A DNA stretch of 64,000 bases from Terriglobales bacterium (GTDB lineage Bacteria; Acidobacteriota; Terriglobia; Terriglobales; Acidobacteriaceae): the NCBI GenBank assembly GCA_025462725.1, contig JAOAPE010000002.1:186001-250000 (forward strand), written 5' to 3'. The position numbers and the translations under genes were made by a program. Shown here one piece after another: positions 1-29,677 of the stretch; position 1 is the stretch's first letter; the number at the start of each line of letters is the position of its first letter. Below the pieces are notes generated by a model. It was given only the letters and a program-made list of their open reading frames with translations, had not been told where the DNA came from and did no database searches.

Positions 1-3000
1 GTGTTGTTAAAGGACGGTACTCGCGTTCAGCCCTGGAAAGATACGAATGGTAATACCGCCTCAGATACTAGTGACATGTTGGGACGCAACTTACTCCCGA
101 TGACATACTACGGGTCTAATTACGTTCTGTACTCTTACACAGACGCGACCGGGACTGCCCAGAGTTATCGGATCGACTACGCAACCTTCAATTATCAAAC
201 AGATTTCTGTCACGGCACTGGGATCACATCAACAAACTGTTATGAGGCTAGCGGGCAGCAGCAATTACCAATAAAGCTGACCGGCCCCAATAACCTGGTT
301 TACCAGTTCCATTGGCAAGACAACGGTTCGCTTGATCTTCAAAAGGTAGACCTCCCGACGGGAGGTTCAATCTCCTACACCTATTCGTCAATAAATAAAG
401 TTACTCCGCACGTGATAGGCAATGCGCGACGCGCCGTCTCAACCAGAACAGTCAATGACGGCACGGATCACGTTTGGACCTATTCAGGTGTAGGTATTGA
501 AGTGGGAGATACCAGAATCACTGATCCTCTGTCTAATTACGAAGTGCATACATTTAGCCAGTGGAATGGCCACCTAAGAACAAGTTTCGAGACAATGGTG
601 CGGTACTACGATTCCAGCAACAATCTGCTCAGAACTATTCAGAAGGATTATCTTGCTGAACAAGACCCCACCGGCGGTACTCCGCCAATTAATCTTCGGC
701 AGATACGTCAAACCACCACTTTGGACGGTGGGCTGGTAAGCAAGTCGGAAACTGATTATGAAACTTTTGCTTCTTCTTACATAGGAACCAGCTATACCAC
801 TACACGCTTAAATCCCACTGAAAATCGCGAATACGACTTCGGCCAGGGCGCGGCAGGGGCCATGCTACGTAAGACAGCAAAGACCTACGTCCATAACGCC
901 AATTCGTCCTATCTGGCCGCGAATATCGCGGACAGAGTGCTGAGCAATGCAGTGTCGGATGGCACGTCTACGCTAGTCGCCTGGACAACTTTTGGATATG
1001 ACGACACTGCAATTTCGCCATCGGGCATCACAACTGCCCACGATTCTAGTTACAACACCAGCTACATGACTCGCGGGAATGTTACGAAGGTGAATCGCTG
1101 GCTAAACACCACGGGTGCCTTGTTGACCACCACGAACACCTATGACGATCTAGGAAATCTAAAATCCATTTCTGATCCGCTCGGACACCAAACACAGTTC
1201 TTCTACTCGTCTGCTTTTGCTGGGGCGTATTTGACCCAGACTCAAAATGCTTTGGGACATATCACCTCGGCGAATTACAACTTCTATACAGGGCTGCCGA
1301 TCAGCGCAACTGATGCAAACCAAAACACAACCACCTTCGCCTACGACTACATGTTAAATCGAATTTCAACTACATTTCCCGACACGATGGCGGGTGTGCA
1401 AGGAAATCTGAGCGTCGATTACCATGGGTATTCCTTACCGTTCAAAATCACAACTACTCGACGAGCAAATCCTAATCCGGCAATCGTATCGAACGTCAAC
1501 TTGGACATGCTGGGACGAGCATCCGTTGCGGAGCAGTGTGAGGACGGACCAGCCTGTACTCAAAAGATCAAGTCCGTCAAGACCTACGATGCACTAGGAA
1601 GAATAAGCACAGTATCGAATCCATATCGCAGCACTTCAGATACCACGTACGGCCTTACTACAACAACTTACGATGCACTTGGGCGAGTCGTTTATGTAAT
1701 CAAACCGGACGGTAGCTCTGAGTACAACGAGTATGCAGGTAATTGGCACACCCAATACGATGAATTAAGGAAGCCAAGAAGCTTTAAAACCGACGCACTC
1801 AATCGACTTGCACTTGTGTACGAGCCTGACCCAGCCACTGGCGCATGGGCGTATGGGACGAGTTATGCGTATGACACGCTAAACAATGTGACAACAGTTC
1901 AACAGGACGGCGGTGCGCCTTCCACTGCGCGATGGAGATATTTCAGCTACGATTCTCTTTCGCGACTCCTGAGTGCCAATAACCCCGAAACCGGCACCAT
2001 CAGCTATGCGTACGATGCGGACGGAAATCTAGCCGGCAAGACCGATGCGCGAAATATCACTACGACTTTCGGCTATGACGCTTTGCATCGGCTGAAACAA
2101 AAGACGTATACGGACACGACGCTTCCCGCCTTCTACTACTACGACGAAGTCGCACAAAACATCGGGAGGCTTACTAGTATCGGAACATGGGGTAGTGGTG
2201 GCTGGGCAACAGCCGCAAACTACAGATATGACGCGATGGGTCGTGTGACAACGCAAATCGATTACTGTGTCCCTTTTTCATACTCATGCTATTACTCCAC
2301 GACGGCTGAATACAACCTCGCTGGCGGATTAAACACACTTACCTACCCTAGTGGCCGAAAGATCACAGATAGCTACGATGCGGCTGGGCGGCTCGGCACT
2401 GTGACCTTCACTAGCTTCGGTGCCAGTGCAATCAGCAACTACAATTATTATGTCGCTTCGACTTTTACTCCTGCTGGCAGCGCACAGAATTGGACTCTCG
2501 GCAACACGGTAGGTGAAGCGGCTACCTTGAACAACCGCTTGCAGCCGAACAGCTACGGAATAGCCTATGCGGATGCGACGGGAACTTATGCTTGGATGAA
2601 CCGGAACTATGGCTATTGGAACGGTTCTGACCCTTGTGCAATAAAGCAAAATACTGCTACTTCCAACAACGGAAATATCGTTCTGGTCATCGACAATCTC
2701 AATGCTGGTCGAACCCAAAGTTTTTGTTATGACAACCTGAATCGGATCACCGGAGCCTGGTCCGGCGCGGGAAGTGGATCAGACGCTTGGGGGCAATCAT
2801 TTACGTACGATCCCTGGGGAAACCTCACTCAGCAAACTGCCTGGAAAGGCACTCCTCCAAACTTCTCTGCTGCAGTCAACCCAAATAACAGGCTGGTCGG
2901 TTACGGTTACGATGCAGCCGGGAACATGACGGCCGATTTGGGTCACACCTACATCTACGACGCGGAGAGTCAAATCACCGGCATTGACTCAAACGCAACC

Positions 3001-26339: not shown

Positions 26340-26957
26340 ATGGTCAAAGGCCTGATTTTTCTTGCTGTGATCGTTCTCATTCTGCTGATGTTCGGCGGAA
26401 TGTACGTTGGTTCAAAGAACCAGATGGTATCGAAGAACGAGCAGATCAAATCAAACTGGTCGCAGGTTGACGTTGTGCTGCAACGCCGTGCTGACCTGAT
26501 CCCGAATCTGGTCGAGACGGTGAAAGGCATCGCTGGCCAGGAGCAAGCGGTCTTCGGCGAGATAGCGCGAGCACGATCCACGCTGCTTTCCGCGCAGACT
26601 CCGCAGGCGAAAATTGCCGCCAACCAGCAACTCGATGGCGCACTTGGACGGTTGCTCGCGGTGGTCGAGAACTATCCGCAATTGCGGTCGAGCGAAAACT
26701 TCCTTCGGCTTCAAGATGAGTTGGCGGGAACGGAAAACCGTATCGCTGTAGAACGCAAGCGGTACAACGATTCCATCCAGGACTACAACACCTACATTGG
26801 CCAGTTCCCTAACAGCCTGTTCGCGGGCTTTGCAGGCTTCTCGCGTAACAACGCGTACTTCGAAGCGAGCGAAACTTCGAGACAGACTCCGAAAGTGAAT
26901 TTCGGGAACAATCCTGCACCAAGCACGGCACCGACACCAGCCACTCCGAAACAGTAA
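26340..26957 (+). CDS. lemA: LemA family protein
   Basis: A 205-residue protein: N-terminal membrane anchor (LIFLAVIVLILLMFGGMYVG), then the LemA helical core (NEQIKSNWSQVDVVLQRRADLIPNLVETVKG, IARARSTLL, ENYPQLRSSENFLRLQDELAGTENRIAVERKRYNDSIQDYN) and a proline/threonine-rich tail. ATG with GAGGAGA upstream at 26327-26333. LemA proteins are anchored with the body outside and typically pair with TPM proteins, as here. A strong terminator follows. Confidence 0.93.
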   Translation: MVKGLIFLAVIVLILLMFGGMYVGSKNQMVSKNEQIKSNWSQVDVVLQRRADLIPNLVETVKGIAGQEQAVFGEIARARSTLLSAQTPQAKIAANQQLDGALGRLLAVVENYPQLRSSENFLRLQDELAGTENRIAVERKRYNDSIQDYNTYIGQFPNSLFAGFAGFSRNNAYFEASETSRQTPKVNFGNNPAPSTAPTPATPKQ

Positions 26958-26968
26958 CTTTCCTCACA

Positions 26969-26996
26969 GCAGAGACGCTTTGGCGTCTCTGCTTTT
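26969..26996 (+). terminator. Intrinsic terminator after lemA
   Basis: GCAGAGACGC (26969-26978), loop TTTG, GCGTCTCTGC (26983-26992), followed by TTTT. It sits twelve bases after the lemA stop and ends the TPM-nucleotidyltransferase-lemA unit. Confidence 0.85.
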
Positions 26997-27059
26997 CTCT
27001 CCCGCCAACCACAGCTTGTTCCCACTACATCGAAACCTCTAGGACTCGAGAGGTGAGGT

Positions 27060-27458
27060 ATGCCCGGAACCATCAGCCGCGACGAACTCAAGCAAAAAAT
27101 GGAGAGCGGCGAAAACTTTCTTCTGGTCGAGACGCTCGCTCCGGAGCATTACGATTTCGCTCATCTGCCGGGCGCAATGAACATCCCGCCGGACCGCATT
27201 GCGGAGATGGCTCCAGCGTTGCTGCCGAACAAGCAAGCAGAGATCGTCGTCTATTGCGCCAGTCCTCATTGACACGCTTCAGAAAACGCTGCCCGTGAAC
27301 TGGCGGCAATGGGATACACCAACGTATTGGACTACGAAGGCGGCAAGCAGGACTGGATCGAGGGCGGCAATCCGGTTGTAGGACAGCACGCCCATCAGCA
27401 CGAGCACAAGCCTGCGATAAAGGATGCGACTACGAATCCGGAAGAGGATGTGGCTTGA
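27060..27458 (+). CDS. Rhodanese-like protein with in-frame TGA (probable selenocysteine)
   Basis: A rhodanese domain of 132 residues if the TGA at 27270-27272 is read through. ATG 27060 has GAGGTGAGG upstream. The N-terminal part has SRDELKQKM, FLLVETLAPEHYDFAHLPGAMNIP and the active-site loop VYCASPH; codon 71 is TGA. The same frame then goes on intact with ASENAARELAAMGYTNVLDYEGGKQDWIEGGNPV and a His-rich tail to TGA 27458. Acidobacterial and other homologues have a cysteine at this place (YCANxxC type), so TGA stands exactly for Cys. A six-base-pair hairpin with an 8-base loop begins 15 bases after the TGA, within the usual bacterial SECIS distance. A point-mutated pseudogene is the alternative; whether selA/B/C exist in the genome is unseen. 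Confidence 0.75.
27288..27307 (+). promoter_or_regulatory. Candidate bacterial SECIS hairpin
   Basis: GCTGCC (27288-27293) pairs with GGCGGC (27302-27307), five Watson-Crick pairs and one G-U, around loop CGTGAACT (27294-27301). The loop starts 21 bases after the TGA. Bacterial SECIS hairpins lie about 16-37 bases after the UGA and carry a G in the first two loop positions; here the second loop base is G. Confidence 0.5.
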
Positions 27459-27459
27459 G

Positions 27460-27492
27460 AGCTGTCAGCTGTAGGCTGTCAGCTCTCAGCTA
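27460..27492. repeat. Short repetitive spacer (AGCTGTCAGCT-type)
   Basis: AGCTGTCAGCTGTAGGCTGTCAGCTCTCAGCT-like sequence between the rhodanese stop and the peptidase stop: three CTGTCAGCT or CTCTCAGCT units with internal palindromes. It resembles small dispersed intergenic repeats; no second copy was noticed in the window. Confidence 0.5.
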
Positions 27493-27505
27493 AACCTGTT
27501 CGAAA

Positions 27506-29677
27506 CTACTGAAACTTCTCTACTCCCAGCTGCGTTAAGAAAAATGCATAGTCGAATGCTACTTCGTGCAAGTAATCGTAGCGGCCGGATGCGCCGCCGT
27601 GTCCTGCGGCCATGTTGGTCTTGAGCATCAGCGGATGCTGATCGGTTGCAGGCTTTAGAGTCCGCATTTTCGCAACGTACTTCGCTGGCTCCCAATACAT
27701 CACCTGGCTGTCATTAAATGAAGTTTTCACCAGGATCGTGGGATACACGCTCGCCTTCAAGTTGTCATAGGGCGAGTACTGCTTCATGTAATCGAAATCC
27801 GGCTTCTTGTTCGGATTGCCCCACTCTTCGTACTCGCCGACCGTGAGCGGCAGCGAGGCGTCGAGCATAGTGTTGAGCACGTCAACAAACGGGACGCCGG
27901 TGAGCACGGCCTTCCACAGATCAGGACGCATATTCGTGACAGCGCCCATCAGCAATCCGCCGGCGCTGCGGCCTTCAATGGCGATGCGGTCCTTCGACGC
28001 GTACTTCTGAGCGACCAGGTATTCCGCGCTGGCGATGAAATCAGTGAAGGTGTTCATCTTGTGCATCATGCGACCGTCGTCGTGCCACGGCTTGCCTAAA
28101 TCTCCGCCACCTCGGATATGCGCAAGCGCGACCACCACGCCGCGATCGAGCAATGCGAGTCGGCTGGCGTTGAAGCCGAGCGGGATGGAGATTCCATATG
28201 AACCGTAGCTGTAGAGATAGAGCGGGGCCGTGCCATCGCGCTTCACGTTCTTGCGATAGATGACGGAAACAGGAACCTGCTTGCCATCGTGCGCGGTGGC
28301 GAAGACTCGATCTACCTGGTAGTTGTTGCGGTCGAATCCGCCGGGGACTTCCGTCTGCTTGATCAGCGTGGACGAGAGGTTGTTCACGTCATAGTCATAC
28401 GCAGAATTGGGCGTGATCGGCGAAGTGTAGTTGTAGCGAAAAACGGACGTGTTCCATTCGGCGTTGGGCCCCGGCGATGCTGCGTAAACCGCTTCGGGGA
28501 ATTTGATGCGATTGTCAGCGCGGAAGGGCTTACCGTCGCCGTTGCGGAGATCAATGATGCGCAACTGCTGCAAACCGTTGTCGCGCTCACCGAGAACCAT
28601 GAACTCGGCGAATGTATTGAGGCTTTCCACCATGACGTTGTCGCGATGGGGAATGAGCGACTTCCAGTTCTTGCGGTCAGGATCGCTGATGGGCGCGGTC
28701 ATGATGCCGTAGTTGCGTCCACCCTGATTCGTGCGGATGTAGAACTGATCGCCGTGGTCGGAAACGAAATATTCCTGATCGTGAACGCGCGGCGCGATCA
28801 TCTTGAAGTCGGCGGTGGGCTTGTCAGCGGAGATGAATCGCGACTCAGAAGTGGTATGGCTGCCGAGTTCCAGGAAGATGAATTTCTTGCTGCGCGATTT
28901 GTAGACGTCCACGTTGAAGGCTTCATCGGCCTCTTCGTAAATCAGCTTGTCAGTCGCGGGATCGGTGCCAAGTTCATGGCGATACATACGATACGGCCGC
29001 TTGGCGCTGTCCTCGACGACGTAGAAGATGGTCTTGTTGTCGTTCGCCCAGGCGATAGAGTTGGTCTTCGCGATCGCCTCTGGCAAGAGCTTGCCAGTGC
29101 GCAGATCTTTAACGTGCAGCGTGTACTGGCGAAATCCGGTGTTGTCAGTGGAGTACGCGAGATAGTTGGCGTCGTCACTGATAGCAAAGGCGCCGAGACT
29201 CATAAATTTCTCGCCCTTCGCGAGTTCGTTCTGATCGAGGATGACTTCCTCGGGAGCGTCTAGCTTGAGATGTTTCCGCGCGTACGTGGGATATTGCTTC
29301 CCCTGCTCGGTGCGTGAGTAGTAAAAGTAGTTGCCGTTCTTGTACGGCGCGCTCACATCCGTTTCCTTCACATGGCTCAACAGCTCTTTATAGAGCTTGT
29401 CCTGTAGCGGCGTGGTGGGCGCCATGAGCGCGTCAGTGTAAGCGTTCTCGGCCTCCAGATACGCGGCCACTTCGGGATTCGACTTCTCGCGCATCCAGAA
29501 GTAGTTGTCTTTAAGAGTGTCGCCATGGATCTGCGTCTCTTTGACGACGCGCTTGGCGACAGGCGGCTTTGCGTCATTTGCGGCCTTAGTCTTAGTGTCT
29601 TCGGCGCTGGTAAGAGGAGTAGAGCTGATAGTGGCGGTCATGAGCAGGCTGAGTATCCACTTCTTAGAATTCGTCAT
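27506..29677 (-). CDS. Prolyl oligopeptidase family (S9A) peptidase, oligopeptidase B-like
   Basis: A 723-residue protein from ATG 29677 (MTNSKKWILSLLMTATISSTPLTSAED, signal peptide); the frame extends 70 codons upstream into non-coding-like sequence. N-terminal PREP propeller block (GDTLKDNYFWMREKSNPEVAAYLEAEN) and C-terminal hydrolase with nucleophile GRSAGG, the aspartate in SFNDSQV and the histidine in GHGGASGR. PFVDVLNTMLDASLPLTVGEYEEWGNP is typical of oligopeptidase B relatives. It probably degrades short peptides in the periplasm. Single gene, followed by a short repeat spacer and the convergent rhodanese. Confidence 0.93.
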   Translation of the reverse strand: MTNSKKWILSLLMTATISSTPLTSAEDTKTKAANDAKPPVAKRVVKETQIHGDTLKDNYFWMREKSNPEVAAYLEAENAYTDALMAPTTPLQDKLYKELLSHVKETDVSAPYKNGNYFYYSRTEQGKQYPTYARKHLKLDAPEEVILDQNELAKGEKFMSLGAFAISDDANYLAYSTDNTGFRQYTLHVKDLRTGKLLPEAIAKTNSIAWANDNKTIFYVVEDSAKRPYRMYRHELGTDPATDKLIYEEADEAFNVDVYKSRSKKFIFLELGSHTTSESRFISADKPTADFKMIAPRVHDQEYFVSDHGDQFYIRTNQGGRNYGIMTAPISDPDRKNWKSLIPHRDNVMVESLNTFAEFMVLGERDNGLQQLRIIDLRNGDGKPFRADNRIKFPEAVYAASPGPNAEWNTSVFRYNYTSPITPNSAYDYDVNNLSSTLIKQTEVPGGFDRNNYQVDRVFATAHDGKQVPVSVIYRKNVKRDGTAPLYLYSYGSYGISIPLGFNASRLALLDRGVVVALAHIRGGGDLGKPWHDDGRMMHKMNTFTDFIASAEYLVAQKYASKDRIAIEGRSAGGLLMGAVTNMRPDLWKAVLTGVPFVDVLNTMLDASLPLTVGEYEEWGNPNKKPDFDYMKQYSPYDNLKASVYPTILVKTSFNDSQVMYWEPAKYVAKMRTLKPATDQHPLMLKTNMAAGHGGASGRYDYLHEVAFDYAFFLTQLGVEKFQ

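Follow-up and report, generated by a model that had tools for sequence, protein, structure and literature searches.

In the available parts of a 2026 review (PMC13188914), selenocysteine (Sec)-containing rhodaneses are divided into forms 1 to 5, with the motifs UxxS, UxxG, CxU, UxxG and UxxxxU, respectively. According to the sections of PMC8533005 drawn on here, the active loop of a rhodanese has six residues and starts with the sulfur-carrying Cys, and the residue that ends it, mostly Arg or Thr/Ser, helps break thiosulfate. We describe a rhodanese gene at positions 27060-27458 of the window (the whole 64-kb stretch of DNA analysed) that departs from this pattern of loop ending. Its loop reads YCASPH-U (Cys66-Ala-Ser-Pro-His-Sec71, C-x4-U), with a predicted Sec, or Cys in relatives, in the sixth place. 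The features of the locus are as follows.

26968-26993, + strand: terminator-like hairpin downstream of LemA, the preceding gene (consensus scan, one hit where shuffles average 0.7, a weak signal)
27048-27056, + strand: Shine-Dalgarno-like GAGAGGTGA before the ATG at 27060, read from the sequence
27060-27458, + strand: putative selenoprotein gene, whose product would be a single-domain rhodanese of 132 residues, the 71st being Sec
27078-27359, + strand: rhodanese domain, residues 7-100 (PF00581, 60.9 bits; AlphaFold2 model)
27255-27257, + strand: TGC codon of Cys66 at the catalytic position (offset -5; Cys in 35 of the 36 stand-alone TGA genes, Trp in one)
27270-27272, + strand: TGA codon predicted to encode Sec71 (TGA in 41 of the 62 distinct genes read, TGC in 19)
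27288-27307, + strand: putative SECIS hairpin GCUGCC-CGUGAACU-GGCGGC (conservation, covariation, SECIS rules)
27396-27455, + strand: C-terminal tail of low confidence, residues 113-132, outside the rhodanese fold (pLDDT below 50 at residues 112-132)

Comparison with described rhodaneses

The frame starts at ATG 27060, passes the in-frame TGA at codon 71 and ends at a second TGA (27456-27458). An earlier note on this DNA had reported this frame, its intact continuation and the hairpin at 27288-27307, all of which are present in the sequence as it described them. The read-through protein scores 60.9 bits on the Pfam Rhodanese profile (PF00581, gathering score 22.2) and the pieces on either side of the TGA score 36.7 and 17.0 bits, the second matching profile positions 74-100 of 102. 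Because both flanking pieces score on this profile, the TGA lies inside a single rhodanese domain, as does the loop YCASPH-TGA to which the note had drawn attention. A gene caller that treats the TGA as a stop would truncate the protein at residue 70, within the domain. Over the 25 codons after the TGA, dN/dS is 0.01-0.30 in all 14 comparisons with relatives, values that come from short stretches with dS often near saturation, and we infer that the downstream part of the protein is translated and constrained.

The close relative L023 has the same start and C-terminal end, and its frame stops at TAA/TAG. A tail resembling that of the window's protein was seen in L023 in a 19-row alignment in which most rows are cut at the match end. 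A His-rich stretch (QHAHQHEHK, residues 109-117, 27384-27410), similar in L023, runs into the low-confidence tail and is possibly metal-binding.

None of the NCBIfam models scored above its cut-off for the protein. The best match is TsoB (form 5, NF045694, UxxxxU) with 45.1 bits, far below the cut-off of 805. In the portion of its description available, TsoB resembles the rhodanese at 27060-27458 in having two chalcogen residues five apart, but it is a rhodanese/DsbD fusion-like protein of 572 profile positions with two Sec, whereas the protein studied here is a single domain with Cys and then Sec. From this comparison by description, the UxxxxU and C-x4-U spacings would mark the same loop. 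LYCAU (form 3, NF041203, CxU) likewise keeps the catalytic Cys and has Sec in the loop, but its Sec follows two residues after the Cys rather than five, and our protein scores 44.3 bits on this model against a cut-off of 115. Two homologues from the same order, L046 (G094) and L061 (G125), carry the CxU loop (YCTU) of form 3 and score 101.7 and 87.5 bits on NF041203, also below cut-off. We rejected membership of both models, as the scores fall below the cut-offs and the loop is C-x4-U.

Form 1 (UxxS, WP_010941598.1), compared by motif only within the available text of the review, fits as a string. A Ser lies three residues after the Sec position (U-x-x-S) in all 36 stand-alone TGA genes, with His (32 genes), Asn (three) or Thr (one) directly after it, and the C-x4-U rhodanese could belong to the same subfamily as form 1. 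The string CxxxxU is absent from PMC13188914, and we found no paper on a C-x4-U rhodanese in the partly accessible texts of the open-licence PMC literature. The C-x4-U rhodanese may be a variant beside the known forms, with the reservation that it could turn out to be form 1. We regard only as tentative the fuller reading, in which an uncatalogued C-x4-U subfamily spans at least three phyla, ends its loop in Sec, uses the Cys-Sec pair as a sulfur-redox switch and also occurs as a module fused to a potassium-channel-like domain.

The earlier note had pointed out that Sec-containing rhodaneses are reported in bacteria, which agrees with the five forms, but the motifs listed in the available text of PMC13188914 do not by themselves cover C-x4-U. 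It had also placed the TGA where related rhodaneses have C-x4-C. Such relatives exist, but Arg or Thr/Ser is the usual loop ending among rhodaneses in general (PMC8533005, sections drawn on here).

The AlphaFold2 model, built from a 15-row alignment with Cys substituted for Sec, has a mean pLDDT of 85.8, with block means of at least 90 over residues 1-110 and low values from residue 112. Its top structural matches are all rhodaneses (BH2092, 3nhv; 3tp9; 6mxv) tied within 1, with a best Z of 18.9. First in this list is BH2092 of Bacillus halodurans (PDB 3nhv, 3o3w; Z 18.9, rmsd 1.9 over 111 residues), a Cys form about 25% identical, whose loop YCWGPAC places a Cys at the Sec71 column without a gap and whose entry titles name no function. 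GlpE, PspE and yeast RDL2 share the fold and the catalytic Cys, but their six-residue loop mostly ends in Arg or Thr/Ser (PMC8533005, in part) in contrast to a longer loop with Sec sixth; from the alignment gaps, 6mxv and PspE have a loop shorter by two residues.

Conservation of the TGA codon and the hairpin

After the exclusions given below and the merging of exact duplicates, a starting set of 76 loci came down to 62 distinct genes, including that of the window (L038). The codon at the Sec71 column is TGA in 41 genes (36 stand-alone genes and five channel fusions), TGC in 19, TGG in one and CGG in one, so that 19 of the 21 sense-codon relatives have Cys, one Trp and one Arg. The homologue alignment proposed in the earlier note thus gave a column of TGA or TGC (Cys) with two exceptions among 62 genes. 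These counts are taken without L137-L139, which lack a Y/H/F-C/W/S-x4 loop, L037, whose frame is broken upstream though it has TGA at the column, the more distant rhodaneses L045-L067, and L161-L165, which were found later. L036, with Arg at the column, belongs to another branch.

The contig search gave 15 loci, 14 with TGA at the column and 13 of these in an open frame; the open TGA frame of L024 is cut by the contig end. Among the matches listed for 150 genomes of the order, the TGA form occurs in six genomes, including the window's own. Further genes came from searches of 396 genomes in the phylum and of 39 genomes in the order to which a Rubrobacterales member belongs. The latter search gave 48 matches, of which 40 were read and eight lay outside the reading (G513, G536:C283, G540, G541:C110, G538:C229, G529:C2, G515:C276 and G537). 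The same TGA recurs in Acidobacteriota, Rubrobacterales (Actinomycetota) and Gemmatirosa plasmid records, and a base error is therefore very unlikely. The Gemmatirosa gene (L164) lies at about 645253-645561 of plasmid NZ_CP007129.1 of Gemmatirosa kalamazoonensis KBS708 (Gemmatimonadota), which provides a named species and strain with the TGA form, and its hairpin GCCGCC-CGTGATCT-GGCGGC has six of six pairs. TGC forms are encoded on plasmids of Leisingera, Streptomyces, Embleya and Nonomuraea (five of 15 plasmid matches were read, that of Gemmatirosa among them). On the Leisingera aquaemixtae plasmid NZ_CP041157.1, the Cys-form rhodanese (L166) adjoins an arsenic resistance gene. In IMG/VR a single locus (L160) matched, and its + frames showed no C-x4-[C/U] loop.

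The column shows that Cys and the predicted Sec interchange at this position. On the best tree the U/C states change four times, of which strongly supported branches force one, and independent switches between Sec and Cys are likely from these sequences. Two members depart from the pair: L043 (G117) keeps the TGA and has Trp in place of the catalytic Cys, and L044 (G145) keeps the Cys and has TGG (Trp) in place of the Sec codon, so that some branches lack the full Cys-Sec pair. Among the Rubrobacterales loci without the catalytic Cys, it is lost in L137 and replaced by Asp in L138 and L139. Single Rubrobacterales genomes can encode a Sec form together with one or two Cys paralogues (L109, L128 and L136 in G528; L110 and L131 in G515).

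In the available parts of PMC13188914, a bacterial SECIS element has a loop of 3-9 nt, a stem of 4-16 bp, a spacing of 16-37 nt, a minimum free energy of at most -7.5 and a G within the first two loop bases, the loop rule being G followed by G or U. The hairpin at 27288-27307 falls within all of these published ranges, having an 8-nt loop (CGUGAACU) with G as second base, a 6-bp stem, 21 bases between the TGA (27270-27272) and the loop, and a folding energy of -8.9 kcal/mol in isolation. The earlier note was correct in its spacing, its loop G and its fit to the SECIS rules, and homologues add covariation. This fit by itself is weak evidence for Sec. Rule-fitting hairpins follow 91 of the 2113 TGA sites (4.3%) on both strands of the window, or 109 (5.2%) if a 4-bp stem is allowed, and the stability of the 51-nt fold after the TGA is not above that of shuffles (z -0.29).

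The hairpin rises above chance because it is conserved: scoring TGA+18..23 against TGA+32..37 (T of TGA = 0), all six pairs form in 34 of the 36 distinct stand-alone TGA genes (counting that of the window) and five in the other two, compared with one to five pairs, and never six, in the 19 Cys genes. In the TGA genes 99.1% of cells pair, against at most 75.5% with the partner slid, and the stem has 14 double-sided (compensatory) changes; in 18 of the 19 Cys genes (L127 was left out of this alignment) 47.2% of cells pair and double-sided changes number zero. Thirteen of the 14 double changes affect one pair, C-G to U-A, coupling Ala/Ala to Val/Thr codons, and the remaining one changes the outer pair from G-C to U-A in L025. 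None of 500 shuffles equalled the observed cells paired or the covariation score, and 14 of 500 equalled the pairs with a double change and the pair types; like the hairpin counts and the Mann-Whitney controls, these are statistics that ignore the relatedness of the sequences.

Codon choice in the TGA genes was compared at same-residue pairs. Identity is 96% at codon +6 and 100% at +7 and +11, all three with their third base in the stem, compared with 27-55% at the mainly-Ala codons -11, -20, -7 and +2 and with 44% at +12, where the third base falls outside it. Some two-fold codons that are not in the stem also show high identity (up to 0.82 at +1), and the value of 1.0 at +13 comes from 20 pairs only. 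The invariant Arg of the loop is encoded by CGT in 29 and CGG in seven of the 36 TGA genes and never by CGC or CGA, which agrees with the G[G/U] loop rule in the available text of PMC13188914. In Rubrobacterales, CGT encodes this Arg in 15 of 20 TGA genes, and by a rough count of the flanking sequence CGT makes up 61 of 771 Arg codons (about 7.9%) and CGC 237 of 771. Conservation of this kind shows selection on the hairpin that appears tied to the TGA, and a real SECIS element within a selenoprotein gene at 27060-27458 is, by these comparisons, close to certain. With Sec and Cys forms side by side and the hairpin in one set only, the family offers a clean natural experiment, and the question of what Sec gains a rhodanese becomes directly testable.

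Decoding machinery and the reading of codon 71

The earlier note had asked for a search for sel genes, and tRNA-Sec, SelA, SelB and SelD were all found in the window's genome (4.33 Mb, 91 contigs). The tRNA-Sec (C70:184250-184344) scores 65.6 bits (cut-off 47) and is called tRNA-SeC with anticodon tca by ARAGORN; SelA scores 535.9 bits (cut-off 267.9), SelB 400.4 bits (cut-off 242.25) and SelD 363.5 bits (cut-off 125). The SelD gene (C4:41564-42499, L018) has its own in-frame TGA at codon 18 (G-U-ASK), presumably the known Sec site of SelD. A formate-dehydrogenase-like frame (C56:515824-517749, L148) has an in-frame TGA in NQARI-U-H, which we take to be the Sec site of the formate dehydrogenase family. 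The C56 pieces stay below the TIGR01591 cut-off (best 150.8 bits), and a frame on C51 without internal stop scores above it. Because the rhodanese, SelD and the formate-dehydrogenase-like frame each carry an in-frame TGA, at least three genes of this genome look Sec-encoding.

Twenty genomes with the stand-alone TGA form were tested for the machinery (G000, G109, G116, G117, G118, G139, G150-G157, G181, G274, G310, G335, G351 and G499), a set that covers few of the Rubrobacterales TGA-form genomes. Nineteen have tRNA-Sec or SelB above cut-off, some having been tested for one only; in G181 and G351 the tRNA-Sec matches are weak, at about 51 bits (cut-off 47). No tRNA-Sec was found at E 1e-8 in G116 and G153, and no SelB above cut-off in G117, G153 and G156; G116 has SelB without tRNA-Sec, and G117 and G156 have tRNA-Sec without SelB above cut-off. 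G153, with neither, may be an incomplete assembly. Across the order, tRNA-Sec is detected at E 1e-9 in 58 of 150 genomes. Having the Cys form does not go with having lost Sec decoding, since tRNA-Sec is also present in G441 and G493, two Cys-form genomes.

Machinery, homologue column and hairpin conservation together support the original reading of a selenocysteine-encoding rhodanese, and we have very little doubt that codon 71 is a Sec codon. That the gene is a functional bacterial selenoprotein gene, a statement about its identity and not its chemistry, appears highly probable. Two other accounts of the TGA have to be weighed. It might have arisen by nonsense mutation, or by an error in base calling, in an otherwise ordinary rhodanese with C-x4-C, given that the Cys relatives use TGC, one base away, in 19 of the 62 genes and that the genome is in 91 contigs. 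A broken gene would not account for a TGA in 36 distinct stand-alone genes from two phyla, and in a third phylum on a plasmid, nor for purifying selection downstream of the TGA and a full hairpin only where the TGA is present; we rejected a pseudogene or base error on the conservation of TGA and hairpin, and consider it extremely improbable. The TGA might also be read as Trp, as a suppressor residue or by plain readthrough, and L044 does have TGG at the column. Here the substitute residue decides, as it is Cys in 19 of the 21 sense-codon relatives, and a reading as Trp was rejected on this ground. The genome also encodes tRNA-Sec, SelA, SelB and SelD, and a rule-fitting hairpin follows the internal TGA but not the terminal TGA at 27456-27458, which leaves decoding other than as Sec very improbable.

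Proposed chemistry, channel fusions and gene surroundings

During translation, the hairpin at 27288-27307 would hold SelB and Sec-tRNA-Sec, and UGA codon 71 would be decoded as Sec to give the 132-residue rhodanese. In the protein, Cys66 would either be oxidised or accept a sulfane sulfur, the donor being a persulfide or polysulfide. An attack by Sec71 on the persulfide at Cys66 could then set HS- free and join the two residues in a selenenylsulfide, which thioredoxin or a comparable reductant would reset. With Sec in the place usually taken by Arg or Thr/Ser in rhodaneses, the enzyme is expected to be a poor thiosulfate:cyanide sulfurtransferase, and by this analogy it should be better as a persulfide reductase or thiol oxidoreductase. 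We lean slightly towards the Cys-Sec redox pair as the working chemistry, and a persulfide as the substrate is a possibility that we hold with some doubt. The absence of the Cys in L043 and of the Sec in L044 cautions against a simple Cys-Sec picture.

Alternatively, the protein may be an ordinary sulfurtransferase in which no Cys-Sec redox cycle operates and Sec71 serves to carry the sulfur or to tune Cys66. The clear rhodanese fold (best Z 18.9) and the retention of Cys66 in 35 of the 36 stand-alone TGA genes would suit such an enzyme, but Sec or Cys replaces the Arg, Thr or Ser reported, in the sections of PMC8533005 drawn on here, as needed for thiosulfate cleavage, and the substitute is Cys in 19 of 21 sense-codon relatives. 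We judge it rather unlikely, if a serious candidate. The loop length and the arsenic resistance gene beside the Leisingera Cys relative would be in keeping with a CDC25/ACR2-type reductase of arsenate or another oxyanion, in which Sec is the resolving residue. The HC-x5-R motif of these enzymes (PMC10135228, in its available part) is absent, however, the 36 stand-alone genes having YC-x4-U-[HNT], and the CDC25-type loop was rejected for want of an Arg. The arsenic neighbour is moreover a single case, with none seen beside TGA forms among the 40 largest neighbour-ORF clusters, not all of them named, and we consider such a reductase improbable.

A longer protein with rhodanese and Ion_trans_2 domains matches at E 1e-60 in seven of the 396 phylum genomes. 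Two of these fusions were scanned (406 and 417 residues; PF07885 at 42.1 and 49.3 bits). The rhodanese loop is present in six of the seven, with no loop found in the seventh (L159), and all six have TGA at the Sec71 column (L153-L158, also L080 and L082-L085; genomes G317, G242, G324, G266, G223 and G414). A hairpin at TGA+14..30 has six of six pairs in five of the genes and five of six in the other, with one C-G to A-U double change. The motif SIG[YF]GD occurs in five aligned fusions, and the C-terminal part has CG[END]CVPR. In one fusion genome, G324, tRNA-Sec was not found. From its domain matches and TGA, the fusion is a predicted Sec-rhodanese joined to a potassium-channel-like domain. 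The words channel and potassium are absent from PMC13188914, and, judged by their titles, none of the papers listed deals with a Sec-rhodanese/channel fusion. The fusion, if borne out, would place Sec in an ion-channel protein and, if our reading of it is true, would represent a selenium-based redox sensor gating an ion channel.

In the window, the rhodanese gene is preceded by a TPM-domain gene, an ORF without Pfam match and LemA, and is followed by a prolyl oligopeptidase gene. L023 and L024, both close relatives, share LemA and the ORF before it, and L023 also shares the peptidase; a sigma-54 response regulator lies near the rhodanese in L101 and L102. Among the 40 largest neighbour clusters, which include many spurious frames, we saw no neighbour common across phyla that would hint at a substrate. 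A search of 26900-27560 for a sigma-70-like promoter found none. The Shine-Dalgarno-like GAGAGGTGA and the terminator-like hairpin after LemA suggest that the rhodanese gene forms a separate transcription unit. Short repeats (GCTGTCAGCT...) lie at 27459-27492, directly after the gene, and, to judge from their translations, some related loci seem to have similar repeats behind their genes.
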